From: Cephalotus follicularis
Lineage: Eukaryota; Streptophyta; Magnoliopsida; Oxalidales; Cephalotaceae
Length of the DNA: 64,000 nucleotides
NCBI GenBank assembly: GCA_001972305.1
Contig: BDDD01001384.1
Span: 53,273-117,272 of the forward strand
Reading direction: 5' to 3'
Below are positions 9,150-63,574 of the stretch, in pieces (within the stretch, counting starts at the first letter, position 1; every line of letters starts with the position of its first letter). Under the pieces are notes generated by a model. It saw only the letters and a program-made list of their open reading frames with translations. It searched no databases and had not been told where the DNA came from. Made by a program: the position numbers and the translations under genes.

Positions 9150-9350
9150 AGCGTCGAAGCTTAAGAAGAAAGCGCCAGCAGTTAGAGGAGTACAATATTA
9201 GCGCTTTATTCCCGAAGGTTAAAAATCAAATTGCAGTCTTAACCTTCGACTCTTTGTCCAAACCTTCAACGCTTTAGGTAGTCAACACATCAAAACGTCA
9301 ACGTAAAACTGTCCAAACCTTCGATGCTTAAGCCAAACCATCGACACTTA
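9150..9350 (+). promoter_or_regulatory. TE-B U3 palindrome array (AAGC-GTCGAC-GCTT type)
   Basis: Degenerate copies of a palindrome of the form AAGCGTCGACGCTT recur here, for example GCGTCGAAGCTT at 9151, CCTTCGATGCTTAAG near 9318 and CCATCGACACTTAAGG near 9338. The 3' LTR has the equivalent at about 15475-15692, with a more regular last copy (CGTCGACGCTTAAG). The array ends about 110 bp before the TATA box. A regulatory role is inferred from position only. Confidence 0.55.
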
Positions 9351-9456
9351 AGGAAGCTGACAGCAAATTTGGAAAGTTTTCACTTTGTAATTATTTCCTT
9401 AAACAGTTTTAAGTAGGTTAAACTTTTTCCTTTCCTTGTTTGCACATGATTTTATG

Positions 9457-9464
9457 TATAAATA
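9457..9464 (+). promoter_or_regulatory. TE-B LTR TATA box
   Basis: TATAAATA lies 475 bp into the LTR, and its 3' LTR counterpart is at 15799-15806. It is a good candidate for the core promoter separating U3 from R. Confidence 0.7.
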
Positions 9465-10129
9465 GGTAATGTTAGGTCACAAAACATGTGTACAAGCTAG
9501 TGACAAGCTTTGCCACCATTAGTTTTATTCTTCATTAGTTTTAAGTTTTTTTTTTTTACAATGTTTAGTAGCTAAACTCTTTAAGGTTTTAGGGAAGAAC
9601 AATGCCTAGAATGTTATTGTTTCAAATCCATCAATAAAAATCCTTGAATATTTGATTTGTTCTTCAATTTTTCTGCCTTCACACACACTTTGTCTGTCTG
9701 ATTAAAATCCATAAACATCTTGTCGGTTAAGTTGAAAGTTGGTGAATAAATGGTGTTTAATTCAATCAATGGAGTCTACTCATACGGTTTGTCACGCCGA
9801 ACACACTCCATATAAACCTAGCATGACTACTCATACTATTTACCTCCACTGTCGTACTTTGTATAGACCTAGCATGACTACTCATACGATTTGTCATCAC
9901 AGTTGCACTCCGTATCGGCCTAGCTACCGTTGGTTATCAAGGTATGAACATTCAATTAAAGTGAATTATTCAATATAATCTATGGTGAGTTTCTATACCC
10001 TAAAACCGCTTTATCTGTGCATATTTTCCTTAGTCTTACTTGTTGCTTTGATTAGTGATAATTTTGCATGCTTTACTTTCCGTTATTTTGAATTCAGAGT
10101 TCTTAACCGTTGATGCCTACATTGTAAGC

Positions 10130-10185
10130 GTCGACGCTTTCCTGCTTTACAATAATTCACGTCGACGCCTTGACAGAACGTCGAC
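10130..10185 (+). promoter_or_regulatory. TE-B second GTCGAC cluster, downstream of TATA
   Basis: GTCGAC occurs at 10130-10135, 10161-10166 and 10180-10185, each in a GCGTCGACGCT-like or ACGTCGACGCC-like context. The 3' LTR has it at 16449-16454, 16470-16475 and 16501-16506. It lies in the transcribed part of the LTR. Confidence 0.6.
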
Positions 10186-10420
10186 ACCATTAGCCCTGTT
10201 TTCAATAGTTTACTTGATTTTGCATATTTATGAATAGTTTTTTATAGTTTTGCCTGAATTTTACATACTTCACTTAGGTTGAATAAATTATAAATAGTTT
10301 AAAGTTTCCCTACGTTTGACCCATTACTGCACAACCGTGCACTTGCGGTATTAAATTTTATTTCTTTTGAACAAGTTTTTATCACCTTTTTCGGGGATAA
10401 TAAACTTCCAATCAAGTTTT

Positions 10421-10438
10421 TGGTGTCGTTGCCGAGAA
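10421..10438 (+). promoter_or_regulatory. TE-B primer binding site (tRNA-Asp)
   Basis: TGGTGTCGTTGCCGAGAA lies 6 bases past the LTR. It differs by a few bases from the TGGCGCCGTTGCCGGGGA expected for the plant tRNA-Asp 3' end and typical of Athila-type elements. TE-C has a better match at 20080-20097. Confidence 0.8.
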
Positions 10439-15306: not shown

Positions 15307-16754
15307 TGTTTAGCATAAAAATGTGTTATTTTTAATTATTTATGTATGATATTTTTATGCTTGGAATGGACTACTTTGGTTGTATTGTGATGATTTTCAG
15401 GTACAAGGTCATCAAGATCAAAGTGCATGAAAACGGTTCAAATTGGTGAAAAATCTACAGAAAACAGTGCAAACCGTCGAAGCTTTGTTTGTAAGCGTCG
15501 AAGCTTAAGAAGAAAGCGCTAGCAGTTAGGAGCACAACATCAGCGCTTTATTCCATAAGGTTAAAAATCAAATTGCAGTCTTAACATTCGACGCTTTGTC
15601 CAAACCTTCGACGCTTTAGGCAGTCAACACATCAAAGTGTCAACGTAAAACTGTCCAAACCTACGACGCTTAAGCCAAACCGTCGACGCTTAAGGCAGCT
15701 GACAGCAAATTTGGAAAGTTTTCACTTTGTAATTATTTCCTTAAACAATTTTAAGTAGGTTAAACTTTTTCCTTTTCTTGTTTTCACATGATTTTATGTA
15801 TAAATAGGTAATGTTAGGTCACAAAACAAGTGTACAAGCTAGTGACAAGCTTTGCCACCATTAGTTTTCTGCTTCATTAGTTTTAAGTTTTTTTTTTACA
15901 ATGTTTAGTAGCTGAACTCTTTAAGGTTTTAGGGAAGAACAAAGCCTAGATTGTTATTGTTTCAATTCCATCAATAAAAATCCCTGAATATTTGATTTGT
16001 TCTTCAATTTTTCTGCCTTCACACACACTTTGTCTGTCTGATTAAAATCCACAAACATCTTGTCAATGAAGTTGAAAGTTGGTGAATAAATGGTGTTTAA
16101 TTCAATCAATGGAGTCTACTCATATGGTTTGTCACGCCGAACACACTCCGTATAGACCTAGCATGACTACTCATACGATTTTCCGCCGCTGCCGTACTTC
16201 GTATAGACCTAGCATGACTACTCATACGATTTGTCATCACGGTCGCACTCCGTATCGACCTAGCTACCATTGGTTATCAAGGTATGATCGTTCAATTAAT
16301 GTGAATTGTTCAATACAATCAATGGTGAGTTTCTATACCCTAAACCCGTTTTATCTTTGCATATTTTCCTTAGTCTTACTTGTTGCTTCGATTAGTCTTA
16401 ATTTTGCATGCTTTACCTTCTGTTATTTTGAATTTGGAGTTCTTAACCGTCGACGCCTACACTGTAAGCGTCGACACTTTCTTGCTTCACAATAATTCAC
16501 GTCGACGCCTTGATAGAGCTTCGACACATTTAGCCCTGTTTTCAATAGTTTACTTGATTTTGCATATTTATGATTAGTTTTTGATAGTTTTGCCTGAATT
16601 TTGCATACTTCGCCTAGGATGGATAAATTATAACTAGTTTAACGTTTCCCTGCGTTCGACCCGTTACTGCACAACCGTGCACTTGCGGTATTAAATTTTA
16701 TTTCTTTTGAACAAGTTTTTATCACCTTTTCCGGGGATAATAAACTTCCAATCA
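15307..16754 (+). repeat. TE-B 3' LTR (1448 bp)
   Basis: It is homologous to 8983-10414. The TATA box is at 15799-15806, the U3 palindrome array at about 15475-15692, and the downstream cluster at 16449-16506. It ends CCAATCA followed by GTCAC. Confidence 0.9.
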
Positions 16755-17522
16755 GTCACCACAATTGAGATGACCGTACAGGTCACCACTGATCGAGATG
16801 ACCGTAAAGGTCACCACCAATTGAGATGACAATAACGGTCACCACTGACTGAGATGACCATAAAGGTCACCAACTGAGATAACCCTATATATAAGGCTAT
16901 TGATTGTAAATGGATTGATAAGGTTATTGATTGTGATTGTTATCAATTATAATTGTAACCACTAGGTTGCTGTCCTAAGAGACTAGTATTAGGGAAGTCT
17001 TACCCCTTCTCTTCTCTGGTTTTCCCACAATGACACTCTAGTCTATGCTGGGCTCCTCTGTCTTGACAAGACTAGTCTTAGGCCATGGCTAAGCAGGCGG
17101 ACTCCGTATGTTCCTTGTCTGCCCAGTATAACCAAGCTAGTCCTCTCTCGGCTTCTCTGCCTATGACACTAAGAGTGCGTAGTCTACTCCACCTTGAGCA
17201 GAGAAGGCCGAGGAGAGTTTACATGCGTCGTAAAATGGTTTTGAATGTCATGGAATAATCGGTGGTCTACTACCTCAGCAGAGGAGGCTGAGGAGAACTC
17301 ATATTTATCCCGAGATGAATTTTGGAATGATATGGACGCTGAATGATGATTTAATAGTATTGTTATGGTTATGGAATATTGTGAATGATGGTTCTGTGAG
17401 TATATGTATTGCTGCATTGTGCATCTCGCATGTCATGCATATTTGAATGATGTGGATGGATGGTATGGACGACATGCCACGTGTCAGACCGTGGGGTCCT
17501 CCTCATGGTTCGGGGCGTGACA
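16755..17522 (+). repeat. TE-A 3' LTR, right part
   Basis: It resumes inside the 27 bp array and ends GGGGCGTGACA at 17522. Relative to the 5' LTR it lacks about 300 bp (the equivalent of about 2269-2571), joined at a TGCAT shared by both deletion borders, and it has about 30 extra bases near 17262-17300. Confidence 0.88.
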
Positions 17523-18549: not shown

Positions 18550-18738
18550 TGTTCAACATAAAAATATGTTATTTTTTAAGAATTTATTTATTATGTTTTT
18601 ATGCTTGGAATAGACTATTTTGGGTTGTTTTTATTGATTTGCAGGTAAAGGAACAAAATGATCAAAGTGCGTAATGATTAGTCCAATTGGCAAAAATTGA
18701 AAACAAATGCTTCAAAACTGCAGAATTTGCATCAAAGC

Positions 18739-19023
18739 GTCGATGGATTCATTGTAAGCATCGACGCTTATCTGTAAAGTGTCGAAGGGTTCAGGGAAAG
18801 CGTCAGCGCTTAATGACTAAAACGCCAGCGGTTAAGAGGAAAATGCCAACGCTTTGGTGCAGAGAAGATAACAATTATATGATACACTTAAAGCAGCGAC
18901 GATTTCAAGGAAACTGTCAATGCTTTAGCCAAACCGCCGACATCAAATACAAAACATCAACTGGTAAGAATGAAGACTGAATGAGGCTCACCAACCATTG
19001 ACGCTTTACTTGTTAGCATCGAC
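18739..19023 (+). promoter_or_regulatory. TE-C U3 palindrome array
   Basis: GTCGAT is at 18739, ATCGAC at 18760 and 19018, with related GTCGAA, GCGTCAGCGCTT and TTGACGCTTT copies between. Flanks are GC/GCTT as in TE-B. The last core lies 120 bp before the TATA box at 19144. Function is inferred. Confidence 0.55.
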
Positions 19024-19143
19024 GCTTAGCACATATCGGGCGACAAAATATGGCAACTTTTGGAGTTTTAAACGGATTGTAATTATTACATTAAGTAGCA
19101 TAATTAGATTAAACTTTCTTTCCTTTATAATGCATGTTTGCAG

Positions 19144-19151
19144 TATAAAAG
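19144..19151 (+). promoter_or_regulatory. TE-C LTR TATA box
   Basis: TATAAAAG is placed as in TE-B relative to the LTR start (about 595 bp in) and to the upstream palindrome array. Confidence 0.65.
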
Positions 19152-19796
19152 GAAAAGGGAGGCCACAAAAAAAAGATGGACAAGACTTGACACAACCGCC
19201 ACCTTTCTTCCTTCAGTTTTCGTTTTCTCCAGTTTTTATTTTTTATTTACAATGTTTTCTAGCTAAACTTTTAAGGTTTTTAGGGTTAGAACAAAGCCGT
19301 TAGATGTATTGAATACTCCATTAATAAAATCCTTGAACTTTTGATTTATTCTTCAATTTTCTGACTTCAAACACACTTTGTATGTCGGATTAAAATCCAT
19401 ATACACTTTGTCTGTGAATAAGAAGATTGTTGAATGAATGGTGTTTGCATGAAATGAATGGAACTATACTCATATGGTCTGTCACGCCGAACACACTCCG
19501 TATAGACATAGCATGTCTACTCATACGGTTTGTGAATCAACTCACACTCCGTATAGACCTAGCATGACTACTCATACGATTTTTCATCACAGCCACACTC
19601 CATATCGACCTAGAATATGTTGATTACCAAGGTTTGAGCAATCAAGTAAGTGAGTTCTCAATATAATCTATGGTGAGTTTCTATACCCTAAAACCGACTT
19701 TATCTTACGTATTTTATCAGTTTATTTCTTGCTTAGATTAATCAGTAGCATTGTATGCTCTAAGTTCTGATAGTTTTAAATACAGTTTGCATAAGC

Positions 19797-19880
19797 GTCG
19801 ACGCCTTGCAATAAGCATCGATGCTTTCAGTGTTTTAGATTATTCACGTTGATGCTTTGTGACATAGCGTTGACGCCTTC
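19797..19880 (+). promoter_or_regulatory. TE-C second palindrome cluster
   Basis: GTCGAC is at 19797-19802 and ATCGAT at 19817-19822, with degenerate ACGTTGATGCTT and GCGTTGACGCC copies after. It matches the position of the TE-B cluster at 10130-10185. Confidence 0.5.
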
Positions 19881-20079
19881 GTCCCCTGTTTAATTAGTTA
19901 GTTTATTTTTCTGGTAATTTAAGATTAGTTTTGATAATATCCCTTCAATTTTGCATACTTCGTCTAGGTTGGATAAATTAAAACTTATTTAACTTGTTTC
20001 CTAGTGTTCGACCCGTTACTGCACAACCGTGCACTTGCGGTATAAATTTAATTCTTCTCAAAAACCGTGAATAAGTTTT

Positions 20080-20097
20080 TGGCGTCGTTGCCGGGGA
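20080..20097 (+). promoter_or_regulatory. TE-C primer binding site (tRNA-Asp)
   Basis: TGGCGTCGTTGCCGGGGA differs by one base from the complement of the plant tRNA-Asp 3' end as I know it. Confidence 0.88.
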
Positions 20098-20239
20098 AAC
20101 AACGTTTAGATTAGTTTTAATTTATTCAACTGATTCGTAGTATTTTTACTAACATCTAACTTAGTTTTAATTACGTTCTCTGCTTTAAATTCGTGTTCTC
20201 TACCTTAGCTTAGTCTTAATGAGTGGTCTGACTTTGTTT

Positions 20240-21212: not shown

Positions 21213-22523
21213 TGTCACACCCCGCTTTCGATAAACACACATAAAAGTGCTAAAGGCAATTAACATTTAAGATTCAGCTTATGCAAAAACCATAAAATTT
21301 AAACATTTCAAACAAGATATCAGTTGCGGAAGCATTAAAACTCATAAGCTGAAAAACACGTAACATGCATCCCATATTGCACGCTACCCAATACATGTCT
21401 GTCGTAGTTAAAAGCCCACAAAACGGAGTGTGATCCGTAATACATTATTCAGTAACATCAAAAGTCTAGTAAACCAAAAAATACGGTACATAACACTCAA
21501 AGGGACATAACCCCGAGTAAACCATTATGAAAAACCATGTACTTCATCCATGCTGACTCCCAAAGCCGGTCCACCGCATCAATCTGTAAAGTAGGGGGTT
21601 AGCCTTTGTCCTCACTCGGCTAAGTCATAAGAGTAATTTGGGATCAATATTAAATGCATGTCATGAAATGTATGCGTGGATGATGCAGTATAGTAAAAAC
21701 ACCAGTTTATATATATATGAAAATATATATAAGTTTGAGGGTACAGTAAAATATCAGTAGGGACATATATATGAAAATATATGTATGCAATAACAGTACA
21801 ATAGTAACTCAGCCAGCGCTACATCAACAGGCACAGTAGTGTCTAAATAGGACCAGTAACAGTATAGAAAGTCCACAAAGGGACCGCAAACAAGCAGTCA
21901 GTATGTACAACGCCACCAACTCCTGGCCCCACGTTGCACTCCCACTTCGGTCCCTTCTCCAGGCAACCAAGCAAGACAACAATACAGTACAGTGAGTTAC
22001 CCAGCCAACTCCTGGCCACTAGGTCAACCCTGCGACTAGTCACCGCTGGCAATCCCCGCCACGCAACTAGTACGGCTCAATCACAAACACAGTAATTTCA
22101 CAGAGCAGGCACAGTAAATAGTCACAGTAGCAGTGCAGTAAACAGTACAGTAATGATCGTTAGTTCGACAATAGGCAGTTTATTTCAAACTGTTTCGAAA
22201 GTCGTAAACATTTGAAATATGTATTTCCAATAGGTAGAAAATACTTTAAATCATTTTAGTAGTGGAAATTGCTTTCCCGGTATGTTCAAAAATATAACAA
22301 TACTCATTTTATATTTTCGTACTCAAACATAGAAGTTTTCAGACTCATATGCGCATTTCTAAATTAATATAACAATTTAGAAATCATAACAGTTCATAAA
22401 CGATTATTATACAGGCAATAATCAGTGCATATGCAATGCATACAAATGCTCTAATGCATCCTAATCAGAATCGGGATCATCGCGCATCGTTTAGGCAAGA
22501 GAAGTCCAAACAACATCCTGACA

Positions 22524-22787
22524 GTCGGCTGGATTCCTTACCAGTCGACTGTTCTGGGTCGACTAGTACAAGTAGTCGACTAGTTTCTTTTACCAGTTGG
22601 ATGTCTATTAGGTAGTCGGCTGTTATCCTTCAACAGTCGACTGTAACTGCTCAACCGTTCATAACATCGTTCAGATAACACATTCCCGCCACTTTCTGGG
22701 TAGGACAACGCATGAGCAGTCGACTGCTTTCTCATGACAATCGACTGTTTCCGTTGAGTAGTCAACTGTCTTCCTTCGACAGTCGGC
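22524..22787. promoter_or_regulatory. CAGTCGACTG palindrome cluster, inner, TE-D 3' LTR
   Basis: Nine GTCGRY/RYCGAC cores occur in 264 bp: GTCGGC at 22524, 22615 and 22782; GTCGAC at 22544, 22558, 22575, 22636 and 22719; ATCGAC at 22740. Most sit in a CA..TG frame (CAGTCGACTG). The 5' LTR copy has eight at 30011-30254. Confidence 0.6.
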
Positions 22788-23631
22788 TGCTCAGCGAACC
22801 AGTAGTATGCAATTCGATCTATCTACTCAAACAGATCATTGCAAGCTAAACATCCATATTCACAAGACAGAATATCAGTATTAGTTATCATGTCGTCCAT
22901 ATAACACCACATTTAACATGCATTTCATCAAGCAAATCAATACCACGATTAAACTCAACATGCATGTACATAATCTCGTTTAATTCTCAACAGTGAGCAT
23001 GGCAGACGAAAACAGCAGTAACCATGTCATAAAAGTTGAAAACCACAGTTCATATAACCAAGCATTCAATCACAGGGCATCCATTAATATTGAGCTCAAA
23101 TAAGCAATTATAACTTCCCCTACCTTTTGATTCCAAGTTAGGAATCTGTAAGTCCACCTCTTTTAGTCCAAACAATAGCTCCTCCAAGCTTCCCAGGTCT
23201 GGTTTGCAAGTCCAGTTTCAAGCTCCAACTCCCAGTTCCTTTGCTTCAATAGTGGAGGTAAAGTTCTCCCTCTTTCTCTCATAAACCCTCTCCTGTTTCC
23301 TTCTCTCTATACTATTTTCTTCCCTTCCAAATCATAGTTCTTCTCTGGTTTCAATAGCTTGGTAGATGGGGTAAATAGGGAAGATTTAAGCAGTTGGATT
23401 CTCTCCCCTTTCTCCTGTCCGATTTTTGCATGTCCATGTGCCATTTTCTTCCCACTTTGAAAACTCTCATGCACCACCTGTCAAGTTCTGCCTCAAATTC
23501 GGTCAGGATAGCATGCAGGTGCAGTCTCCTTTCCCTGCATGAGCCGCATGACTGCTAGGTGTAGCCCCACATCTTTCCTGTCAGCTTCTGCTTGTGATTA
23601 CTTCACATGTTTGCTGACAGAATGTCACCCA

Positions 23632-23750
23632 GTCGGCTGTTCTTACTCAATAGTCGGCTGGCAATTCGAGGCCATCCAGTCGACTATTTCCACAAACAGT
23701 CGATTGCCCCATCTAACCGTTCAGTCGGTTGTTCCTGCAAAACAGTCGAC
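23632..23750. promoter_or_regulatory. CAGTCGACTG palindrome cluster, U3 side, TE-D 3' LTR
   Basis: Six cores in 119 bp: GTCGGC at 23632 and 23653, GTCGAC at 23679 and 23745, GTCGAT at 23699, GTCGGT at 23724. Only three remain intact in the 5' LTR (31119, 31146, 31166); others read TTGGC or GTCAGC there. Confidence 0.6.
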
Positions 23751-23952
23751 TGTTTGGGCCTATTTCTTCTGAAATTCAACCCATCGTTTCAAGTGATATA
23801 CCTCAACGTTCCTTAACATTACATAAGTCAAAACAACATTATGTGAAAAGGAAAACGTCATCGAAGTCGGTAAATCGGTCATTTTATTAATTTCACAATA
23901 AAAGTACAGTTACTTTGTGAAAATACAACATATGAAAATACCGGGCATTACA

Positions 23953-23970
23953 TCCACCCCTCTTCAAGGA
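23953..23970 (-). promoter_or_regulatory. TE-D polypurine tract
   Basis: The minus strand reads TTGAAGAGGGGTGGA directly before the LTR start TGTAATGCC. Position and composition are typical. Confidence 0.88.
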
Positions 23971-28679: not shown

Positions 28680-31418
28680 TGTCACACCCCGCTTTCGATG
28701 AACAAACATAAAAGTGGTAAAGGGAATTAACATCTAAGATTCAGCTTATGAAAAAGCAATAAAAATTAAACTTTTCAAACAAGATATCAGTTGCGGAATC
28801 ATTAAAACTCATTAGCTGAAAAATACGTAACATGCATCCCATGCTGCACGCTACCCAATACATTTCTGTCATAGATAAAAGCCCATAAAACGAAGTGTGA
28901 TCCATAATACATTATTCAGTAACATCAAAAATCTAGTAAACCGGAAAATACGGTACACAACACTCAAAGGCACATAACCCCGAGTAAAACATTATGAAAA
29001 AACTTGTACTTCATCCATGTTGACTCCCAAAGCCGGTCCACCGCATCAATCTGTAAAGTAGGGGGTTAGCATTTGTCCTCACTCGGCTAAGTCATAAGAG
29101 TAATTTGGGATCAACATTACATGCATGTCATGAAATGTATGCGTGGATGATGCAGTATAGTAAAAACACCTGTTTTTATATATATGAAAATATATATAAG
29201 TTTGACGGTACAATAAAATATCAGTAGGGACATATATATGAAAATATATGTATGCAATAACAGTACAGTAGTAACCCGGCCATGGCTACATCAACAGGCA
29301 CAGTAGTGTCCGAATAAGAGCAGTAATAGTATAGTAGGTCCACAAAGGGACCCTAGACAGGCAGTCAGAATGTACAACGCCCCCAACTCTTGGCCCCACG
29401 TTGCACTCCCACTTCGGTCCCTTCTCCAAGCAACCAAGCATGACAACAGTACAGTACAGTGAGTTACCCAGCCAACTCCTGGCCCCTAGATCAACCCTGC
29501 CACTAGTCAACGTTGGCAGTCCCTGCCACGCAACTAGTACGGCTCAATCACAAACATAGTAATTTCACAGAGTAGGCAGAGTAAATAGTCACAGTACCAG
29601 TGCAGTAAACAGTATAGTAATGATCGTTAGATCAACAAGAGGCAGTTCATTTCAAACTGTTTCGAAAGTCATAAACGTTTGAAATATGTATTTCCAATAG
29701 GTAGAAAATACTTTAAACCGTTTCAGTAGTGGAAATTGCTTTCCCGGTATGTTCAAAAATATAACACTACTCATTTTATATTTTTGTACTCAAACATAGT
29801 AGTTTTCAAACTCATATGTGCATTTCTAAATTAATATAACAATTTAGAAATCATAACAGTTCATAAACGGTTATCATACAGGCAGTAATCAGTGCATATG
29901 CAATGCATACAAATGCTCTAATGCATCCTAATCGGAATTGGGATCATCGCGAATCATTTAGGCAATAGAAGTCCAAAAAGCATCATGACTGCCGACCGGA
30001 TTCCTTACCAGTCGACTGTTCTGGGTAGAGCAGTACAAGTAGTCGGCTGGATTCTTTTACCAGTTGGCTGTCTATTTGGCAGTCGGCTGTTATCTTTCAA
30101 CAGTCGACTGTAACTGCTCAACCATTCATAACATCGTTCAGATAACACATTCCCGCCACTTTTTGGGTAGGTCAACGCATGAGCAGTCGACTGTTTTCTC
30201 ATGGCAGTCGACTGTTTCCATTGAGTAGTCGATTTTCTTCCTTCGACAGTCGGCTGCTCAGCAAACCAGCAGTATGCAATTCGATCTATCTACTCAAACA
30301 GATCATTACAGGCTAAACATCCATATTCTCTGGACAAAATATCAGTACTAGTTATCATGTCGTCCATATAACACCACATTTAACATGCATTTCATCAAGC
30401 AAATCAATACCACGATTAAAATCAACATGCATGTACATAATCTCGTTTAATTCTCAACAGTGAGCATGGCAAACGAAAATAGCAGTAACCATGTCATGAA
30501 AGTTGAAAACCACAGTTCATACAGCCAGGCATTTAATCACAGGGCATCCATTAATCTTGAGCTCAAATATGCAGTTATAACTTCCCCTACCTTTTGATTC
30601 CAAGTTAGGAATCTATAAGTCCACCTCTTTTAGTCTGAACAATAGCTCCTCCAAGCTTCGCATGTCTAGTTTGCAAGTCCAGGTTCAGGCTTCAAGTCCC
30701 AGTTCCTTTGCTTCAACAGTGGAGGTAAAGTTCTCCCTCTTTCTCTCACGAAACCTCTCCTGTTTCCTTCTCTCTACACTATTTTCTTCCCTTCCAAATC
30801 ACAGTTCCTCTCTGGTTTCAATAGCTTGGAAGATGAGGTAAAGAGGGAAGCTTTAAGTAGTTGGATTCTCTCCCCTTTCTCTTGCCCAATTTTTGCATGT
30901 CCATGTGCAATTTTCTTCCCACTTTGGCAACTCTCATGCACCACTTGTCAAGTTCTACCTCAGATTCGGTCTGGATAGCATGCAGGTGTTGTCTCCTTTC
31001 CCTGCATGAGCCGCATGACTCCCAGGTGTCGCCCTACATCTTTCCCGTCAGCTTCTGCATGTGATCACTTCACATGTTTGCTGACAGAGTGTCGCCCAGT
31101 TGGCTATTCTTACTCAACAGTCGGCTGGCAATGCGAGGTCATCCAGTCGACTGTTTCCACAAACAGTCGGCTGCCCCATCTAATCGTTCAGTCAGCTGTT
31201 CCTACAAAATAGTCAGCTGCTTGGGCCTATTTCTTCTGAAATTCAACCCATCATTTCAAGTGATATACCTCAACGTTCCTTAACATTACATACTGAAAAC
31301 AACATTATGTGAAACAGAAAACGTCATCGAAGTCGGGAAATCAGTCATTTTATTAATTTCACAATAAAAGTACATTTACATCGTGAAAATACAACATATG
31401 AAAATTCCAGGCGTTACA
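28680..31418 (-). repeat. TE-D 5' LTR (2739 bp)
   Basis: It is collinear with 21213-23952. Palindrome clusters are at 30011-30254 (eight cores) and 31119-31171 (three intact cores). It ends GGCGTTACA at 31418, followed by the target copy ACCCA. Confidence 0.92.
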
Positions 31419-31423
31419 ACCCA

Positions 31424-32818: not shown

Positions 32819-35448
32819 TGTAATACCCTGTTTGTCAGTACGTATTTTTACGGATTTTATTTATGTTTTGATAAGTAGGTTGTCTACCTTACTTTGGGTC
32901 TATATGTGGGCTGTCTGATACCAGCCTTGGCTATGGATATGTTAGTATGTATGTGTACGTAGGGATTGTTATTTTATTTTAAATTCTTTTAAATCAGTTT
33001 TTAATAAATTAATAAAACCCAGTCTCTTATTTTAATTTATTTCCTTTTTCCTTCTCCCATTCAAATTCTCTCTCTCACCCGTGTCCCTCTCTTTCCAATC
33101 TCCCTCCCCCGCACAACTCTATCTCTTTCCTTTCTCTCTCTCGAAAAACCTGGCTCTTTCCCTTATTCAACTGATTTTGTTTTCCTTATCCCTTATCTAA
33201 CCTGCTTTACTCTTCTTGCTATTTATGTATGTTATGCCATTGTATTTTCTGCCATTTCTTCTCCTTGTGGTTGCTGCCGAACCTGCCATTGGAGTTCATT
33301 GTGTTTTTGGTGCTCTTGCTTCATCAATCAGGTTTGTTTCTCCATGGATTAATTGTAGGAATCATTTTTACATTGTTTTGTATAGTGGGCAGGCTTTAAG
33401 TTCATTATTTTCTTTCCCTCTCATTTTCTTTTGAGCAGCCACTGTGTCCTCTGAATTGGTGTCTCTCCAATTGGTTTTGTCATTATAAGTTTGGTTTCCT
33501 TATGTTGTTATGACATGGTGATTGGCTATGTGTTGTTGGCTATCAAATTCTTATATAATAGGCTACTAGAGTTTAATTCAGTTTTGGTTCTTGCCTTTCA
33601 TGTTCTGTCATTCACTTTCTGAGTTGGTTAGCAAGCCTATTGTCATCTCATATGTGTTATGTAATCTGGTTTTATAAATTGACTATGGCAATTATGTAAA
33701 AAATGGTTTAGGATATAGGTATGCAATGGTTTGTTTTCCTACTCACCACTAGTTGGCCATTGTTATGTATCTTTCGTTTAATTTAGTGTCATGATGTTGT
33801 TTTAAATACCTTAAGGAGTCCTTATAAGTGTTAGTAATCTTCTGGTTTTGAGTAATTCGAGTTTTGGCAGCAAGATTGCACAAAACTGCTATGTTTTTAC
33901 TGTTCTATCGCCTAGGACAGTTGGCTACCTATATGAACAGTCGACTATCTCGCTTATGTAGTCGGCTGCCCTATGAATTTAGTCGACTGTTTTGTTTTAC
34001 ACAGTCGGCTGGACTCCCTGTCTTAGTCAACTTGTTCCTATTCTGGTTGGGTAGTCGGCTGGTCCATGTGATACAGTCGACTGCCATGCTTGTACAGTCG
34101 ACTGGAGATTTGCAACAGTCGACTGGATTGTCCTGTAACCTTCTGTTTTCATGTTCTTTAATCTGTTTATTCCTCTGATGAATCCGGGTTTGTTTTAAGC
34201 ACTGTATTGAATCTGTTTTATGCCCACAGTGATTTTAGACCCTTACATGAATGTTTTATATTGTATAGATTTTTTAGAGCTACGAGGGATTTTTAAATTA
34301 TCGGTTATTCGTAAGCTTCTCTTTGATCGCATAAGGTACGAATAATTCTCTTCTTAGACATCTGATTTATTCGAAATAAATCCGGTTTTAAGGATATGTC
34401 CCTTTCAGTTTATGACACTGTTATGTTTTGGATTTTGAAGATAAAGTCACTCAATATTTTATGAGTTAAATATCTCAGACTTTATAAATTTAGCTATGAT
34501 ATGTTTACGATGTGTTATGAAATCACCACTTTATTGTGAAATTAAATGAGTTGATTTACTTGTTTATGCATGTGTTTATACCGTTTGATAACGATTTATG
34601 AATATGTTTTCGAAAATCATTTCTTATGTGTTTCTAAATTGATTGTGATAAAATCAACGATTTCGAAATTGTGACATACTGAGTTTGTACCCACCTATGG
34701 GGCGTACCATAGGCATGTTGTAGGCCTGGCACGGGGGCATGACACTTTCCATAATGATGTGATTTGTTTACGGCGTCTCTCTATGTTTATGATATCTTGG
34801 ATATGATTTGTGATAGAGGCATATGGATCGATCCTAGTTTTATGTTATGTGATATGATATGTTATGGGAATTGTTTGTGTAGTGCCGTACACTTTAATTC
34901 TATGAGCAATGTGGAAGCCGCGAGTCCCTTGCTACTATGTGTTTCTGATATGTGATATGATATGATACTCAGTTATGGAACATGTGGTTTTGAAAGGTAA
35001 GTTTTATGTTTTCCAAGTTATGGTTATGACTCATATGTTTTGCCGAGGGCCATTTCAAAGAATGTTTAAACTGTTTTACTGTTTAAGATTTCTTCTTTTG
35101 AAGTAACTTTGAAATCTTATTGCTTTTAATATATCGTTTACTGTTTTACATTCTATATTCGTACTGATGTTTACTCAACCGCGTTTTTGTTTCTATGCGG
35201 CAGGTTATCAAGAGCGACGGGACAATGTGTGATGAGAGTTGACTCCCTTATGACTGAGGATCATCTAGGAGTTGATCCCGCTGTGTTTATGCTATTATAT
35301 GGCCGTAGTAGGGCCTGGTTTTTATGAACAATATGTTAGTTTCAGTATGTTATCAGTTGTGTTCTAAACCAGCCTTTTTATTATATTATGTTATGTTATG
35401 TTTCTGTATTATGACCTGTAAGGGCTCCCACAGCTCGAGGGTGTTACA
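32819..35448 (+). repeat. TE-E 5' LTR (2630 bp)
   Basis: It starts TGTAATACCCTG, directly after AAAGGAGGA belonging to TE-C, and ends GGGTGTTACA before the PBS. It contains a GTCGAC cluster (33940-34123) and pyrimidine-rich stretches near 33060-33150. Small frames in it have no recognisable domain. Confidence 0.88.
33940..34123. promoter_or_regulatory. CAGTCGACTG palindrome cluster in TE-E LTR
   Basis: Eight cores in 184 bp: GTCGAC at 33940, 33982, 34076, 34097 and 34118; GTCGGC at 33961, 34004 and 34054. Spacing is mostly 21-22 bp, about two helix turns, with two wider gaps. The motif is the same as in TE-D although the surrounding LTR sequence differs. A weak TATA-like TTTATATTG follows about 130 bp downstream. 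Confidence 0.6.
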
Positions 35449-40319: not shown

Positions 40320-41281
40320 ATGTGCCTATGGTCCAATCAAACAACTACTCAAATACAATAAAGTACTAAAAGCCAATAAGCGACAAAGACCTATTAGGGG
40401 GAACAGATGAGTATGTAGTCATCCTATGGCCGGCCCGACTAGAAGTCGCTAATATGCCTATGGTCATAGTCAAATCAATCAAGTGTTAATCAACATGACC
40501 ACGCAATTGTAAAGTACAAAGAGTCGATTGATAGGTGGACAGTAGTCCCAAATCAATTTGTCAAGCAATACTATTTAGTCGATGGATCGGTTAGCCAAAT
40601 GTGTCAATCAAAAGTCGTACGCAATCAACTAATCTAGTAAAAGACCAACATGACCTACCTAACCAGAGAGAAAACAGTTTAAAAGGGCTTGACTGATCTC
40701 AAGTGAAATCCGGTTAAGCGATCCTTTGAAAATATGCAAACAATTTTAAAACAGGTAACTTGGCCCTAAGGGATAACACAAACGATGAAGGTTAGATTCC
40801 AAGAATCGTCACTTAGCTCAAAGAACTAAGTCAAGTGTCGATGCTCAAGATAAGAATCAACTCTAGGCGAAGAACACTCCAGATAGAATATCATCGCTTC
40901 ATAACCTAGAACTGTAGTTTTGTAAAGACAGCATTAAACGATTACGACTTAGTTTAAGCAAGAATGCTTAGCAAAATGTGGTTACATATTGCCTTCGGTC
41001 AATAAACATATAAAATATGTTAACACAGGTTTAAAGGAAAGTTATTTGGGCCTTGGAAGGCTCCTATAACATATCGTTTGAGAAAAATAATTGAAAAGCC
41101 TCAAACAGTCCATTTCAGAGAAAACCTCCGTAAAACATTACTTTTAAATCCCTTTTGTTCAATTGGTCTAATATTTGATGAAACATGTTTAAAAGGCTTG
41201 AGTGATATCCAAAAATGATCCAATCAAGAAGTTGTTTGAAAATGATTGAAAATAATTTAAGTGGTGAAAATAGAGCCTTAA

Positions 41282-41580
41282 GCGACGACGCTTCTATTGA
41301 AAGTAGCGATGCTTTGGGCCTAAGTCAAGTTCTGTTAAAGGTGTACTAAGTGGTGACAGTTAGACTAAGCAGTGACACTTTGTATGTCAGTGCCTGGTGT
41401 CCACGCTTAGCACTGTCGACATCATTTTGCACCAAAATTAAGCTATGTTAAGCGGCGACAGTTGATATTAAGCGTCAGCGCTTAATATAAAAGCGTTGAC
41501 GCTTTGATCATGTTCGTCAGATTTTTAAGTGATAACAACACTAAGCGTCGGTGCTTCTGGGCAAAGCGCCAGCACTCAGG
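41282..41580. promoter_or_regulatory. Degenerate GTCGAC/GCGTCGACGC cluster outside recognised LTRs
   Basis: Copies include AGCGACGACGCTT, CACTGTCGACATC, AAGCGTCAGCGCTT, AAGCGTTGACGCTTT, AAGCGTCGGTGCTT and AAGCGCCAGCACT. They resemble the TE-B/TE-C motif more than that of TE-D or TE-E. The surrounding sequence is otherwise unlike TE-B. Confidence 0.5.
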
Positions 41581-43966: not shown

Positions 43967-43971
43967 CACAA

Positions 43972-47038: not shown

Positions 47039-47044
47039 GCTTTT

Positions 47045-47062
47045 TGGTATCAGAGAGACCGG
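47045..47062 (+). promoter_or_regulatory. TE-F primer binding site (tRNA-Met initiator)
   Basis: TGGTATCAGAGAGACCGG lies six bases past the LTR. It matches the tRNA-Met complement at 11 of the first 12 positions. Confidence 0.88.
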
Positions 47063-47165
47063 TTTAGTTTCCTTGTGTTTTCTTTGGAGACTTTTGGGGG
47101 ATGCATGCATTGCATTTCATGTGGTACATATGTTAGTAATGTCCTAACCTTGCATGTGAAGGTAA

Positions 47166-51895: not shown

Positions 51896-51909
51896 GAACA
51901 AAATTCCTT

Positions 51910-51922
51910 AAAGGGGAGAGGA
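51910..51922 (+). promoter_or_regulatory. TE-F polypurine tract
   Basis: AAAGGGGAGAGGA directly abuts the 3' LTR start TGTAACGAC at 51923. Confidence 0.9.
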
Positions 51923-54900: not shown

Positions 54901-55044
54901 CCTCGGCAGTGCATTTTTAACGCCCGCCCTGGCCTTAGCGTTAGCCTTTGTTGTTGTTGGGGTTTGGTTAGGGATCCAGGTGAGAGATCCTTCCACCTAG
55001 CACGGCCGTCCTCGAGCGGGGGTGCTCGGGAACGGGGCGTGTCA
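51923..55044 (+). repeat. TE-F 3' LTR (3122 bp)
   Basis: It is homologous to 43972-47038 and ends GGGGCGTGTCA, followed by the target copy CACAA. It contains the 45 bp tandem repeat at 54623-54795. Confidence 0.92.
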
Positions 55045-55049
55045 CACAA

Positions 55050-55235
55050 TGACCTTACCCGAGCACTACGAAGTTGCAATACAACTTGGTATGAAACCGA
55101 GGTGTTTGATGCAGCTCAGATTCTAAGGGCCCACAGTGAACTAATCCGATCACTATGAAGGTGCAAGACCACTAAGTATGAAACGAGGTATTTGATGCAA
55201 CTTGGATTCTAAGGGCCCATAGTGGCCTTATCCGA
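55050..55235 (+). repeat. 87 bp tandem array (right part), TE-G
   Basis: This continues the array cut by TE-F with two more full units (near 55057 and 55146) and the start of a third, then leaves the repeat at about 55235. Confidence 0.85.
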
Positions 55236-55423
55236 GCTTTTGTCCTGTGTTCGGAACAACTGCCCATTCTTTTGCCACGTGTTATGACATTCTAGAAGAC
55301 TTTGGTTTTGGTGGGAATTTTTCATTTCACCCTTTTTAAGGCAACTGTTGTTGTTCCTAAGGCAAAGGGAGGGGGTTTAAGTACGAAGCCTCTCCCAATT
55401 TTGCATTCACTTCTTCATTTCTT

Positions 55424-57130: not shown

Positions 57131-57156
57131 ACACTAAGGCCTCATCATCTCTTACA

Positions 57157-59138: not shown

Positions 59139-59307
59139 TGTTTAGCATAAAAATGTGTTGTTTTTAATGGTTTATTTGTGATATTTTTATTCTTGGAATA
59201 TACTACTTTGGTTGTGTTATATTGATTTTCAGGTATAAGTGCTAAAAGACCAAATGATTGAAGAATGACTCCAATTGGTGAAAATCTACAAAAAACAATG
59301 AAAGACA

Positions 59308-59619
59308 TCGATGTCTTTTGGTTAGGATCGATGTCCTTTCTAGGATTACAGTTGGGCCCAATGTCATATGAATTGCGCCGATCCTATCTTCAAATGCTAT
59401 GAAAATCACGTCGATGTTTTCTCAACAACATCGATGTCTTTGATAAAGACATCGATGTCTTCATAAATCAGATCGATGTCTTTGTGCAAATTCGACCTGT
59501 AACTTTTGGACCAAACGCGTCGAAGTCTTTTGAACAGTATCGATGTCTTCCATTACGTGCATCTCAGCAAAACGTGATTATTTACAAAACACGTCGACTT
59601 CCAACTGAAAAGCGTCGAC
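59308..59619 (+). promoter_or_regulatory. TE-J U3 palindrome array (ACATCGATGTC type)
   Basis: The main form is ACATCGATGTCTTT: ATCGAT occurs near 59308, 59329, 59430, 59450, 59472 and 59538, GTCGAT near 59410, and GTCGAC at 59593 and 59614. The last core lies 90 bp before the TATA box at 59710. A regulatory role is inferred from the placement. Confidence 0.55.
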
Positions 59620-59709
59620 ACGTTCTACTGCAATAGAATTAGAAAGTTAGATTTTTTCCATATTTTGTAACTAGGATTGGATTATTTATGTTTTTGATCA
59701 GTTTTGTAG

Positions 59710-59717
59710 TATAAATA
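59710..59717 (+). promoter_or_regulatory. TE-J LTR TATA box
   Basis: TATAAATA corresponds in place to TATAAATA in the TE-B LTR. Confidence 0.65.
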
Positions 59718-60226
59718 CTGAAATGTAGTTTTAAAAATAATCTAGACTTTTTCGCAAAGAACTAAAACAATAAGCAATCTCAATATAAGCAAAGTTGTAA
59801 AGAGATAGAGTAGAGAGATATGCAAACACTAGTTTAGAGTGGTTCGGCCAAACTCTTGCCTACGTCCACTTTTCCCAATGACCTCCTTGAGTTTCCACTA
59901 GTTCTCCGAATAAAATTGCGGGTGCTATTCGGTACACCTTTGTGATTGACCTCAATCACTTACAATACTCTTTGGGTTCACTCCCCAAATTCACTAGGGT
60001 TCACTCCCCTATTACAATCAAAGAATAAAAAGTAGTTTGTGTAGCTAAACCTCTCACAGGTTGGATATTACAATATACAAGCTCAATTTAGTGAGAACAA
60101 GAGAATAGCTTAAAATATGACAAGAAAATGCTCTTTGGATGTGATTTGATCTTTTGTATGTTTTGTTTGCTTGATGATGTTTTGCACTTGTTGTTCTTCT
60201 TGTTCTCAGAGGTTTTTGAACTCCCT

Positions 60227-60232
60227 TTTATA
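60227..60232 (-). promoter_or_regulatory. TE-K LTR TATA box
   Basis: The minus strand reads CTATAAAAGGG. It lies 98 bp downstream (minus direction) of the last GTCGAC core at 60331-60336, and about 750 bp from the LTR start. Confidence 0.7.
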
Positions 60233-60330
60233 GTCATAAAAGGTTTGTAGCCGTTGCTTGATTTGTGGAGGCTTTTGATTAATAAAATAGTAGCTGCAAT
60301 CTTTGATTTTATTTCTGCTGGTGTAGAGAC

Positions 60331-60837
60331 GTCGACTTCTTTCAAAAAGGCGTCGATGTCTTTGTTCCATGTAGCCGTTGTAGTGCTTGAAGTATCCGTT
60401 CCATGTTTCCTGGTTTTTGTCTGTTTAAAAAGGCGTCGACTTCTTTTCAGAAAGCGTCGATGTCTTTTCTAGGTAATCACCAGGAATTTCGACTTTGAGT
60501 AACTCGTCGACTTCATTTTTGGGAATCGATGCAATTTCTGGGAAATCCAGATTTCTCGAGTAAGTCGTCGATGTCCACTTAAAGGCGTCGATGTCTTTAG
60601 TATGGACGTCGATGTCTTTGCATTTAGAAGTCGATGTGATTGCATGAAAATGTTCTGTAACTTTGGTACCCAAAGACGTCGATGTCTTTGAGTAAGGGGT
60701 CGACGTCTTTCGTACGGACGTCGATCTTTTTGCCTTTATAAGTCGATGTCTTTGTGTCAAATTGTCCTGTAACTTCATGCATGAAAGGAGTCGATGTCTT
60801 TTGTAAAGGAGTCGACTTCTTTCCTACGGACGTCGAC
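60331..60837 (-). promoter_or_regulatory. TE-K U3 palindrome array, about 16 cores
   Basis: GTCGAC (60331, 60435, 60506, 60699, 60811, 60832) and GTCGAT (60352, 60456, 60567, 60587, 60608, 60630, 60678, 60720, 60742, 60790), in contexts such as GACGTCGATGTCTTTG. Many neighbours are 20-22 bp apart. The array fills about two thirds of U3. Confidence 0.6.
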
Positions 60838-60980
60838 TTCTTGCCTGGAAGATCAATGTCTTTTGTGTAGATGGTATTTTTACTTTTGTACTTCTATTGT
60901 AATTCCTTGCACATCAAGTAGATTTGTTAAATGCAAATATGTTATCATCAAAACAAGGATTGAGACTAAATAGTCAACAA

Positions 60981-61295
60981 TCTCCCCCTTTTTGATGATG
61001 ACAAAAATTTGCTCAAAAAGGCAAGAATTAAAGTGAATACCAATTTAAATAAATAGATAGATATATCTTATTTAGTATGCAATATTTCAAGTAGGTTATA
61101 ATATATGCTTCCTTGACATTTTCTCCAAAAAGTGAGTTATTTCTCCAAGTTACCATTAACTTGAGAGAATAGGCATTAAATTCATTTTGTTCTCCCCTTT
61201 TTTATACAAATATAGATTTTGAACTTATTCTCCCCCTTTTTTGTATAGCATCAAAAAGAACTACACAAAGGCAGAAAATTGTTAGCTCCCCCTTA
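60981..61295 (-). promoter_or_regulatory. TE-K multiple polypurine tracts
   Basis: The adjacent PPT (minus CAAAAAGGGGGAGA, plus 60981-60994) is followed upstream by three more purine runs: minus AAAAGGGGAGA (61191-61202), AAAAAAGGGGGAGAA (61228-61242) and AAGGGGGAGC (61284-61293). The first and third share their flanks and look duplicated. The stretch 60995-61629 is otherwise non-coding. Confidence 0.75.
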
Positions 61296-61629
61296 ATATA
61301 AGGAAGGGTAAAAAGAGAGATTATAGGCATATTGCAAAAATTATCAAAGTTGGCAATGAATATTAGAAACCAATTGAATAAACGAAACCACATTTATGCA
61401 ACATATTATATCAAACTCATTCATTCAATACCACATATATATCATAAATTAAAACATAAACACTAATTCAAAACACCATTTCGTGAAACTTAAACATTTC
61501 ATTAATATCATACAAACATTAACAATATTGTCTTTTACAAGCAGAAATTTATAAAGAAAATACATCATGATTCATTAACAACAACAAAATAGCAGCAAAA
61601 ACAGCAACGAAACAGCAGTAATCAAGCAG

Positions 61630-62871
61630 TCAAAATTCAGCAGGAGGAGGATGAACGGAATCGGTGGATGTATCGCCGTCATCGCCCGAAGTGTCTGTGC
61701 AATGATCAAAAATATTGGCTTTGGCAAGATTACGTTCTATCCTTGTAAGACGTCTCTTAACGACCCTTAGGTCGTAGTAAACGCCGTCATCAACATCTTC
61801 GTAGTCCTTATGAAGAACTTGATGATCTCTCGACAAACGACCGAGATGCAACTTCATATCCTTGAGTTGACCATCAGAAGAAGCTTGCATAGAGGCAAAC
61901 TGGGATTGCATAACCTCCATCATTCTGTCAAAGTCAGAAGTGGATGAGGAGCCTTGAGCAGGGGCTGTTTGTGTTTGAGCAGGGGCTGTTTGTGCAGGGG
62001 CATCTTGTTCCCAAGGAGGGTTGTCCTCTTGCTCCTCCCTCACAATCCTTGGAGCTTGATCCGCTCTAGGACAATACGTCCATATTCCTTGCTGCATCTT
62101 CCAGCCCATTCAATTCAGCGTACTCTTGTTATATGTGTCTTCCTTCTTCAATTTTGTGGCAACCTCTCCATCAAGCCGAATATGGAAGTGTAAGAAGATT
62201 TTGGTGAGAATAGAGCCAAAAGGAAGAACGGATTTCTTTTGGTGAAAGGCTCTAACCATTGTTTTAAGCATAAGAAGGGGGAAACAATACTCAATCCTAG
62301 AAAGAATGCACCACATGAGGAAGACTTGCATTCTTGACAACTTGGCGTACCCTCCACCGGTGGGTAAATTTTGATGAACTATGAGGTGGTGGAGGAGTCG
62401 ATGATCAACGGACAAACGATTCGTAGTGAGTGCCATGTTAGGATGCACATTTGGATCGTTGGGATACAAGATAGACAAAATGTGGTTAGGGTGAAAACCC
62501 TCAACCTCCGGCCATTTCTTATGTTCAAAAACATAAATGCCGGTGTGTGGAATGTGCAAAATGGAAGCAAGAATCCTAGCATCTAAGAAGATTCTTTGAC
62601 CTTTAACTGTGGAAGTGAGGGCAAATTCCTCATTTTGATTGGAAGCCATTCTAAGATTGGAATAAAATTCTTTGACAAGTTTTATATAGAATGGATCAGA
62701 AATTTGGACTAGAGGGATAAGATTAAGATCCTCTAACCAAGATACGAAGGAAAACTCAGAGGAACGGAATTGTAAATCGATGGTTCTTCCTCCCATCACC
62801 CTTTTATCCACAAAAGCGACACTTCTCAAAGGAATTGGTGAATGCTCTTCGGATTCGGAATCCGATTGCAT
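61630..62871 (-). pseudogene. TE-K envelope-like ORF (SIRE type), one in-frame stop
   Basis: Two frames abut exactly and are in phase: 62871-62110 (253 codons, TGA at 62112-62110) and 62109-61630 (159 codons). They were probably one protein of over 400 residues, broken by one nonsense change. The first half has VDKRVMGGRTIDLQFRSSEF, DPFYIKLVKEFYSNLR, RILASILHIPHTGIYVFEHK and KKSVLPFGSILTKIFLHF, matching the envelope-like / 'putative plant transposon protein' domain found downstream of pol in SIRE-type elements. The second half is Gln/Pro/Ala-rich and then a heptad-like coiled coil (MEVMQSQFASMQASSDGQLK). The same frame stays open upstream of 62871 (GGKKKGASSSQPPQSAKKQR), so the start may be farther upstream. 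A fusogenic role has never been visible from sequence alone. Confidence 0.78.
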
Positions 62872-63574
62872 AGCGGGGTCTGGAGATGGCTCTCTACTAT
62901 CTAGCCTCTGCTTTTTAGCAGATTGTGGAGGCTGAGATGAAGAGGCTCCCTTCTTTTTGCCACCCCGTTTTGTTCTAGCAATTTTGTCGAGCAGTTGGAG
63001 TGCATAAGACAGATATACACAGATTGTTAAAAATTGATGGATTGGACAAGATCGAAAGAAGTTTTGGACGAAGAAGAAGTAGACAGGAGATGTTCTACGA
63101 CCTAATAGAGTGATTTTTGATGAAAAACAGACAGAGAAAAATAATTTTGAAAAACTTAGAAAGAGGGAAAAATGAGAGAATGAGCTTGAGATCGACTTTT
63201 TATGAAGAAGTCGATTTCTGGCACAAAGACGTCGACGTGATTCAGGAAGAAGTCGACGCGACCTTTTAAAAATAGCTATAAAAATGGTGCGTTTTAGGAG
63301 AGCATCGACGTGGTTTTAAAATAGTCGAGTTGTTTTAGTAAGAGACAAAGGAGTCGACGTTTTATTTTATAAGGGTCGATGTCTTTTTCAAACGGTAGAA
63401 TTTTTCCAGAAAAGGAGTCGACGTGATTTAAGTAAAGCATAAAAATCCCAGAAAAGTAGTCGACTCTTTTTACAAAAATAGCAGAAAAATCAACCAAAAA
63501 CATAATAAACACAGAGAATCAAACATCATATCAAATATGCATCATTCAAGCATATCATATAATCATTGAAAACA
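62872..63574 (-). other. TE-K spacer between pol and envelope-like ORF, with palindrome array
   Basis: 62872-62997 continues the envelope-like frame with a basic, Ser/Gln-rich sequence. 63191-63464 holds about nine cores: GTCGAC at 63231, 63252, 63353, 63417 and 63459; ATCGAC at 63191 and 63304; GTCGAT at 63210 and 63375. The contexts (AAGTCGACG, GTCGATGTCTTT) are those of the TE-K LTR array, but this is an internal, non-LTR position. Confidence 0.6.

Follow-up and report, generated by a model that had tools for sequence, protein, structure and literature searches.

Why should retrotransposons with unrelated long terminal repeats (LTRs) carry arrays of the same short palindrome? This question is raised by a 64,000-nucleotide stretch of the Cephalotus follicularis genome (contig BDDD01001384.1; C1384:53273-117272; "the window"), in which LTRs of Athila-like, chromovirus and Sirevirus elements contain arrays of short palindromes centred on TCGA. 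The sites occur in excess, are regularly spaced, have a characteristic position in the LTR, are present in three lineages, and mix their outer arms between lineages. We infer, with a probability of roughly 55%, that the arrays are enhancers of the LTR promoters, that they would be bound by a family of host nuclear factors, and that they have been partly exchanged between Athila and Sirevirus elements.

Genome-wide counts are from the assembly that contains the window (1,577,397,061 bases, or ~1.58 Gb, in 9,746 contigs). Besides the regions of the window, we examined 20 stretches of 10 kb each, taken from large contigs (C10-C580) with the offsets fixed, and further loci; places outside the window are designated by L and a number. 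Element boundaries within the window (Table 1) were obtained by comparing the sequence to itself (LTR pairs and shared LTR starts), and the elements are designated by letters.

TCGA-centred sites are concentrated in LTRs

The hexamer RTCGAY occurs 101 times in the window, as compared to 34.9±6.2 times in 60 dinucleotide shuffles (maximum 48), and GTCGAC, with an observed/expected ratio (O/E) of 7.1, is the top of the 64 palindromic hexamers. Thus, the arrays that were described in a first-pass annotation of this DNA are real. Among perfect palindromes of at least 10 bp (n = 90, counting nested AT runs), TCGA is the commonest centre (25 palindromes, five of them outside arrays). The arms around the centre (written here as left/right) are of type AAGC/GCTT in B and C, GAC/GTC in J and K, and CAG/CTG in D and E. 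CpG density is 56.9/kb inside arrays and 24.9/kb elsewhere in the window.

When regions were compared to 300 shuffles each, the excess of RTCGAY was clear in the LTRs of B, C, D, J, and K, in E at 33.0-35.0 kb, and in K at 63.1-63.5 kb. The main internal regions were at expectation (3 vs. 3.3 in A, 3 vs. 2.5 in B, 3 vs. 2.9 in D, 3 vs. 2.9 in E, and 3 vs. 2.3 in F). Away from the arrays, small excesses are also present: the LTRs of A have 2 sites each (0.57 and 0.38 expected), and the count for the 3' LTR was matched by 12 of 300 shuffles; the internal region of C (20091-21212) has 3 (0.9 expected, matched by 12 of 300); and 40225-41200 has 3 (0.4 expected, matched by 5 of 300).

Arrays are not confined to the copies in the window, so this ground for rejecting the first-pass reading does not apply. 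Genome-wide, AAGCGTCGACGCTT occurs 18,108 times (15 times for the reversed control) and GTCGAC-N4-34-GTCGAC pairs occur 224,538 times, as compared to 3,925 for reversed (CAGCTG) pairs, which match in composition with dinucleotides unmatched. (These pair patterns are palindromic, so the counts for the two strands are identical.) GACGTC pairs occur 58,600 times (2,693 for the reversed control), a count that is not itself a clean control because many of the matches listed are fragments of GAC-type arrays. In the 20 stretches (200 kb in total, three partly N), GTCGAC was again the top of the 64 hexamers (O/E 4.2), and RTCGAY occurred 225 times, with 110.7 expected. Ten of the 20 stretches contained 17 clusters of at least 3 sites, a raw count with no shuffle null; one of these clusters (L013, 3183-3353) is not array-like and two are both copies of one L014 repeat. 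Scans of IMG/VR with two array patterns, the PF20167 alignment, and Athila gag gave no matches, and the tool may omit records from this genome itself.

How many independent carriers are there? At least six had been proposed. Arrays are indeed found in unrelated LTR families, but the carriers in the window fall into just three lineages: Athila-like (B, C, and J), chromovirus (D and E), and Sirevirus (K). The two clusters of K belong to one minus-strand element. The stretch near 41 kb is decayed (6 relaxed sites, of which one is RTCGAY) and, judging from its similarity to C, is probably a relic of the Athila family of B, C, and J instead of an independent carrier.

The same arms recur in different lineages

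The first-pass annotation stated that the outer arms differ by lineage, which turned out not to be the case: GAC/GTC and AAGC/GCTT arms are both found in Athila and in Sirevirus LTRs, and relatives of the chromoviruses show three types. Arms were typed by simple match scores, and ambiguous sites were left unassigned.

For Sireviruses, the 3' LTR junction AGGGGGAGATTGTTGA occurs 3,208 and 3,195 times on the two strands (controls: 10 and 12), and for Athila, the LTR start TGTTTAGCATAAAAATGTGTT occurs 2,694 and 2,657 times (controls: 17 and 11). We considered 15 Sirevirus and 8 Athila loci, which are the first places found on C1-C2 and not a random draw. At 13 of the 15 Sirevirus loci, the U3 region has at least 4 RTCGAY sites (L029 and L039 have 0 and 1); 8 of the 15 are of GAC type, 4 are of AAGC/GCTT type, and L035 is left unassigned. 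Two Sirevirus LTRs from the 200-kb set, L022 and L023, are AAGC/GCTT-like by eye; typing gave 4 of 6 sites for L023 and was chiefly ambiguous for L022. Four of the 8 Athila LTR starts are followed by AAGC/GCTT arrays (L047 on the basis of two typed sites), two by GAC arrays, and two by no array. Of the other Athila loci, L010 is AAGC/GCTT, while L018 (5 GAC, 2 AAGC/GCTT, and 7 ambiguous sites) and L023 (3 GAC, 2 AAGC/GCTT, 5 ambiguous, and 1 CAG) are GAC by plurality; the Athila fragments L017 and L025 contain no arrays. The arm type of L001-L004 (L002 and L003 overlap) is not evidence, because the AAGC/GCTT motif itself was used to locate them.

Among chromovirus ends, D and L012 have CAG arms, L013 has GAC arms (5 sites), and L022 has AAGC/GCTT arms (two typed sites beside other insertions). 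In L014, the 750 bases past the end of the chromodomain are free of arrays, although CAG sites occur elsewhere in that locus. L013 and D are 78.4% identical over 4.77 kb, and the L013 array lies ~115-260 bp into the LTR. Overall, the same arm types recur between lineages and differ inside one LTR family.

Sites are phased and arrays commonly end at a similar distance from the TATA box

In the window, 30 pairs of sites are 19-22 bp apart, as compared to 4.1 in jittered nulls (maximum 12). Furthermore, the 24 spacings above 24 bp (using one LTR per element) favour a period of 10.5 bp (R = 0.46, p = 0.004 by jitter). Because the longer spacings also fit 10.5 bp, the phasing is more than a repeat unit. 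Genome-wide, 81 of the 100 GTCGAC pairs listed, which come from one contig and include near-duplicate copies, have a spacing of 19-22 bp, and 10 have a spacing of 27-28 bp. In the U3 regions of the eight GAC-type Sireviruses, 72 of 119 spacings are 19-22 bp, as are just 6 of 27 in the four AAGC/GCTT-type Sireviruses. A coding origin of the 21-bp period (as heptads) was ruled out, as neighbouring spacings of 19, 20, 21, and 22 bp break the frame.

B, C, and J have their LTR start in common, and alignment places their TATA boxes in one region. The last site of the array is 114.5 bp from the TATA box in both LTRs of B, 123.5 bp in C, 93.5 bp in J, and 101.5 bp in K. This distance is 100.5-103.5 bp at all eight GAC-type Sirevirus loci. 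Of the six Athila loci with arrays, five have a distance of 94.5-126.5 bp, and the 650 bases of the other contain no TATAWA. B, C, and D carry extra arrays deeper within the LTR.

Some Athila and Sirevirus arrays have similar spacers

If arrays had moved between elements, then the sequence between the sites might be shared as well. We compared arrays to shuffles of their spacers with the sites held in place; the pairs are related, not independent, and the results are uncorrected for the many pairs. For 27 Athila-Sirevirus pairs of GAC type, the mean z was 2.05 in inverted orientation, with 3 of 27 beyond all 300 shuffles, and 0.14 in direct orientation, with none. For AAGC/GCTT pairs, the mean z was 2.13 in direct orientation (2 of 24 beyond all shuffles) and 0.49 in inverted orientation (1 of 24). 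J aligns with L033 across 157 columns, spacers included, and in an earlier form of the test with J and K, the observed score was reached by 1 of 200 shuffles. Because some Athila and Sirevirus GAC arrays have spacer sequence in common, these comparisons suggest that arrays were exchanged as modules, inverted relative to transcription. For the chromovirus arrays, we found no convincing spacer homology (the best z, 2.9, was not above all 60 shuffles).

The shared spacers also bear on the earlier proposal of convergent recruitment of one DNA-binding factor. A single factor remains the simplest reading, but given that the GAC spacers are shared, convergence is at most part of the story.

Separately, within the window, the non-palindromic word TGTCCTGTAAC is found only at the E and K arrays (34129 and 60763), and CCTGTAACTT is found only in the J and K arrays (59496 and 60766).

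A host factor may read the arrays

We propose that the units, each quasi-palindromic, 10-18 bp long and centred on TCGA (or CCGA), are binding sites. Units are typically ~21 bp apart, or two helical turns, and therefore the bound proteins would sit on one face of the DNA. The end of the U3 array is commonly separated from the TATA box downstream of it by ~94-127 bp. The units would be bound by host nuclear factors of one family, which recognise the TCGA centre and differ in preferring one of two or three arm types, and this binding would drive transcription of several unrelated retrotransposon lineages; the second array of K would act likewise for the open reading frame (ORF) in the env position. 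Athila and Sirevirus arrays would have been partly swapped as modules, while the chromovirus arrays may be independent. That a DNA-binding factor would bind the arrays at all is the simplest reading of them. We are more tentative, at somewhat under even odds, about the broader idea that unrelated superfamilies in one plant share TCGA-centred enhancer arrays whose arms come in a small set of interchangeable types, and that Athila and Sirevirus LTRs have swapped such arrays, also in inverted form, so that one host factor family controls much of the load of LTR elements.

Several observations weigh against a host factor that acts through enhancers. First, some LTRs do without arrays: A and F in the window (the F LTRs have 0 and 0 RTCGAY sites), the Sireviruses L029 and L039, the Athila loci L043 and L044, and the relatives of F at L009 and L018. 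Second, spacings of 27-28, 35, and 47-50 bp are out of the two-turn register. Third, the position relative to the TATA box varies: in the AAGC/GCTT-type Sireviruses L025, L030, and L031, the TATA match and the last RTCGAY are separated by 237.5, 256.5, and 373.5 bp (in L038 there is no such match); the second arrays of B and C are downstream of the TATA box; and a pattern search found no TATA box in D or E. Fourth, no single published plant site among those compared fits every array. Fifth, the contrast in mean pairwise column identity within arrays between cores (0.72-0.91) and spacers (0.28-0.41) arises partly by construction, because sites were chosen by their match to the motif. Finally, seven of nine arrays (B2, C1, D2, E, J, K_LTR, and K_int) give RNAs with stronger folding than their dinucleotide shuffles, with z of -2.6 to -5.9, while four controls range from -1.8 to +0.8.

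Because of this folding, a small-RNA explanation stays in play: the arrays might be kept for hairpins in transcripts that trap or generate small interfering RNAs, with DNA binding being secondary. Such a role has been proposed for the palindromes in maize Sirevirus LTRs. In maize, the palindromes of Copia LTRs are hotspots for small RNA mapping, according to the available text of PMC5311732. However, B1 and D1 fold in an ordinary way (z = -0.67 and -1.85), and self-complementary DNA sites in any array would fold like the others. Also, the main transcript does not include the U3 arrays, which precede the TATA box, and hairpins need neither a regular 21-bp period nor a fixed distance to the TATA box. 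We consider this explanation to be rather unlikely.

That the arrays arose neutrally, through slippage or through tandem duplication of a short functionless unit, seems extremely improbable. The K array does include a 112-bp tandem duplication. However, slippage poorly explains one and the same centre in unrelated LTR families, as the first-pass annotation had argued, and the spacers of the arrays have diverged while the cores held (with the caveat about site choice given above). In the LTR tails of B and C, identical columns number 48 of 61 at sites, 19 of 45 in array spacers, and 192 of 323 in the remainder.

If a host factor does read the arrays, could it be a CBF/DREB-type AP2 protein, with the units being variants of CRT/DRE (RYCGAC, GTCGAC, or RCCGAC) and the elements responding to cold or drought? 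Stress-related motifs in PLACE include CBFHV (RYCGAC) and CRTDREHVCBF2 (GTCGAC), as given in the available text of PMC6628100. Sense-strand RYCGAC is present at 24 of the 27 sites in the two LTRs of D and at 16 of the 17 K_LTR sites; counting either strand, it is present at 8 of 8 E sites. The density of RCCGAC is 4.4/kb in arrays vs. 0.33/kb outside. The U3 of the Rider LTR has DRE motifs and a CBF site, but Rider showed no cold induction (available text of PMC6762207). RYCGAC is present at just 2 of 9 J sites and 2 of 13 B1 sites (both LTRs), and Sirevirus L037 matches it at 7 places vs. 16 for RTCGAY. Conservation of the site in GAC-type Sireviruses is at least 0.81 in the left half, AAGACATCGA, and only 0.67 at the C that follows. 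The match to CBF/DREB sites is thus partial; J, B1, and L037 weaken a strict identification, which we view as quite unlikely.

Alternatively, the reader might be encoded by the elements. The PF20167 protein of the Sirevirus K could bind the palindromes in its own LTR and before its own gene, in the manner of VANC, and the other lineages would have borrowed its sites. K does have an array in its LTR and another upstream of its PF20167 ORF. The N-terminus of that ORF is basic, and its C-terminus is helical in a low-confidence structure model (mean pLDDT 36.8). We found 401 relatives of PF20167, and all 120 of those listed are Cephalotus proteins, which suggests that the family has expanded in this plant. 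However, a profile of the Cephalotus members found no relative elsewhere in the window (none in B, C, D, E, or J), and the core domain has no solved relative: four weak structural matches (E = 0.1-0.86) reach the C-terminal helices only. The mixing of arms between lineages also suits a host factor better than an element-coded reader. We find the element-coded reader very doubtful.

Elements of the window

The terminal polypurine tract (PPT) of K, AGGGGGAG, is at 60989 on the minus strand and is followed by AT and then by TG at the first base of the LTR (60979). The linker after ENV contains three such octamers (61293, 61237, and 60989, minus strand), and an inverted repeat adjoins the PPT/LTR junction (a 23-column match with one 2-base gap, whose left arm ends at the PPT). 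Because the PPT octamers, the AT/TG junction, and the inverted repeat at the junction are all present, we identify K as a Sirevirus from these sequence features. The published 5' LTR/primer-binding site junction of Sireviruses is CA-ATTGG-TATCAGAGC; K's own 5' end is outside the window. The RTCGAY sites of K are 147-648 bp from the LTR start, and its TATA box is at 747 bp. Searching with the K ORF gave proteins of Cephalotus follicularis as the best matches, with at most 92% identity among the top matches listed. For the pol C-terminus of K, a Pfam search gave no informative match.

The chromodomain of E (39872-40198) passes the cut-off with E = 4.1e-07, while the match in D (E = 5.6e-05, 23.4 bits) is slightly under the Pfam cut-off of 25.1. 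Downstream of the E array there is a site resembling a primer-binding site at 35454 (2 mismatches). E is flanked by a 99-bp repeat (33559-33657 and 40225-40323, 99% identity) and has no clear LTR ends.

The insertion site of B is the end of an A-family LTR, and A-type internal sequence picks up again at 16755; GTCAC at both edges of B (8978-8982 and 16755-16759) is a likely target duplication. The A-family LTR has its own 37-bp tandem repeats, along with a 28-bp repeat across its 3' end (1214-1427, 8595-8797, and 1563-1708). F is inserted within an array of 87-bp tandem repeats, which continues on either side (43294-43970 and 55045-55237).

Table 1. Retrotransposon features and palindrome arrays, in window coordinates.
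Feature	Position	Strand	Details
A LTRs	218/7605		self-comparison
B 5' LTR, Athila-like	8983..10420, end approximate	+	LTR pair 8983/15307, 91.8% identity
B 5' LTR arrays	9149-9349 in U3; 10105-10189 near LTR end		TATA 9457
B 3' LTR	15307..16754	+	arrays 15472-15691 and 16445-16529; TATA 15799
C LTR, Athila-like, relative of B	18550..20075, end approximate	+	element interrupted by D; primer-binding site at 20080, presumably of tRNA-Asp type
C LTR arrays	sites 18735-18790, more to 19023; second array 19793-19878		TATA 19144
D 3' LTR, chromovirus	21213..23955	-	LTR pair 92.2% identity; sites CAGYCGACTG
D 3' LTR arrays	23629-23753 (~205-325 bp into LTR) and 22521-22790		
D 5' LTR	28680..31421	-	arrays 31117-31174 and 29988-30257; primer-binding site at 28664(-), presumably iMet
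E array, chromovirus	33937..34126	+	8 relaxed CAGTCGACTG-type sites
Decayed array	41280..41556	+	AAGCGTCGACGCTT-type; 25-column match to C
F	43971-55044		LTRs 43971/51922; self-comparison
J LTR, Athila-like	59139..59779, end approximate	+	80% identity with B at the start; truncated by K
J LTR array	59302-59619		GACATCGATGTC arms; TATA 59710
K 3' LTR, Sirevirus	59780..60979, low end approximate	-	PPT AGGGGGAG-AT-TG; TATA 60232(-)
K U3 array	60326..60862	-	17 relaxed sites, AAAGACRTCGACGYCTTT type
K second array	63186..63427	-	7 relaxed sites; between pol end (~63578) and env-position ORF
K env-position ORF	61657..62979	-	PF20167, "putative plant transposon protein"
K pol C-terminus	63578..64000	-	copia RNase H end, recognised from translation

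Comparison to known systems

In the VANDAL elements, a single protein (VANC) reportedly reads short repeated motifs in non-coding element DNA. VANDALs are DNA transposons with an element-coded reader, whereas the carriers in Cephalotus are LTR elements and their reader is putative. The LTR of Rider is a further point of comparison: DRE motifs and a CBF site lie in its U3, and the available text of PMC6762207 does not mention an array or a 21-bp spacing. The LTRs of maize Sireviruses contain a palindromic regulatory region that is highly variable in sequence and is a small-RNA hotspot (Bousios et al. 2016, as cited in the available text of PMC5311732); the Cephalotus arrays are alike in being a palindromic region of the LTR, and differ in species, core, and lineages.

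The closest layout, palindromic arrays of this kind, is already known from Sireviruses, a precedent that the first-pass annotation did not name. RM boxes are high-copy palindromes that precede the TATA box within the LTR and, where an element has ENV, precede ENV as well (Bousios 2010, PMC2829016; statements about this paper refer to its available text). Similarly, the LTR of K has its boxes clustered ahead of the TATA box, with further boxes (63186-63427) before the PF20167 ORF. Published RM clusters begin 200-400 bp from the LTR start, and no common binding factor was identified (PMC2829016). Of the 13 RMs described there, all but Tnd-1 have a CGG-CCG core, while the centre in Cephalotus is TCGA; nevertheless, two published RMs, Tnd-1 ACAATCGATTGT and Vitis CGGTCGACCG, have an RTCGAY centre. 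RM boxes were described as specific to Sireviruses and absent from classic Ty1/copia elements, whereas in Cephalotus, Athila-like and chromovirus LTRs carry arrays with a similar layout. The words "spacing" and "helical" occur in the available text of PMC2829016 in the reference list only, and searches of an open-access literature collection showed no such arrays outside Sireviruses among the results listed.

If one host factor family does read the arrays, then a transposon-rich plant would have one point of control over three major retrotransposon lineages, both for their expression and for their silencing. It would then also be possible to test directly what binds the RM boxes of Sireviruses, with clean probes defined by the TCGA centre that the arrays share and the arms that they swap. 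For superfamilies to exchange promoter modules would be an unusual way for transposable elements to evolve. Relative to RM boxes, the Cephalotus arrays add a genome-wide TCGA core, two Ty3/gypsy lineages, the ~21-bp spacing, mixed arms, and a hint of module exchange.

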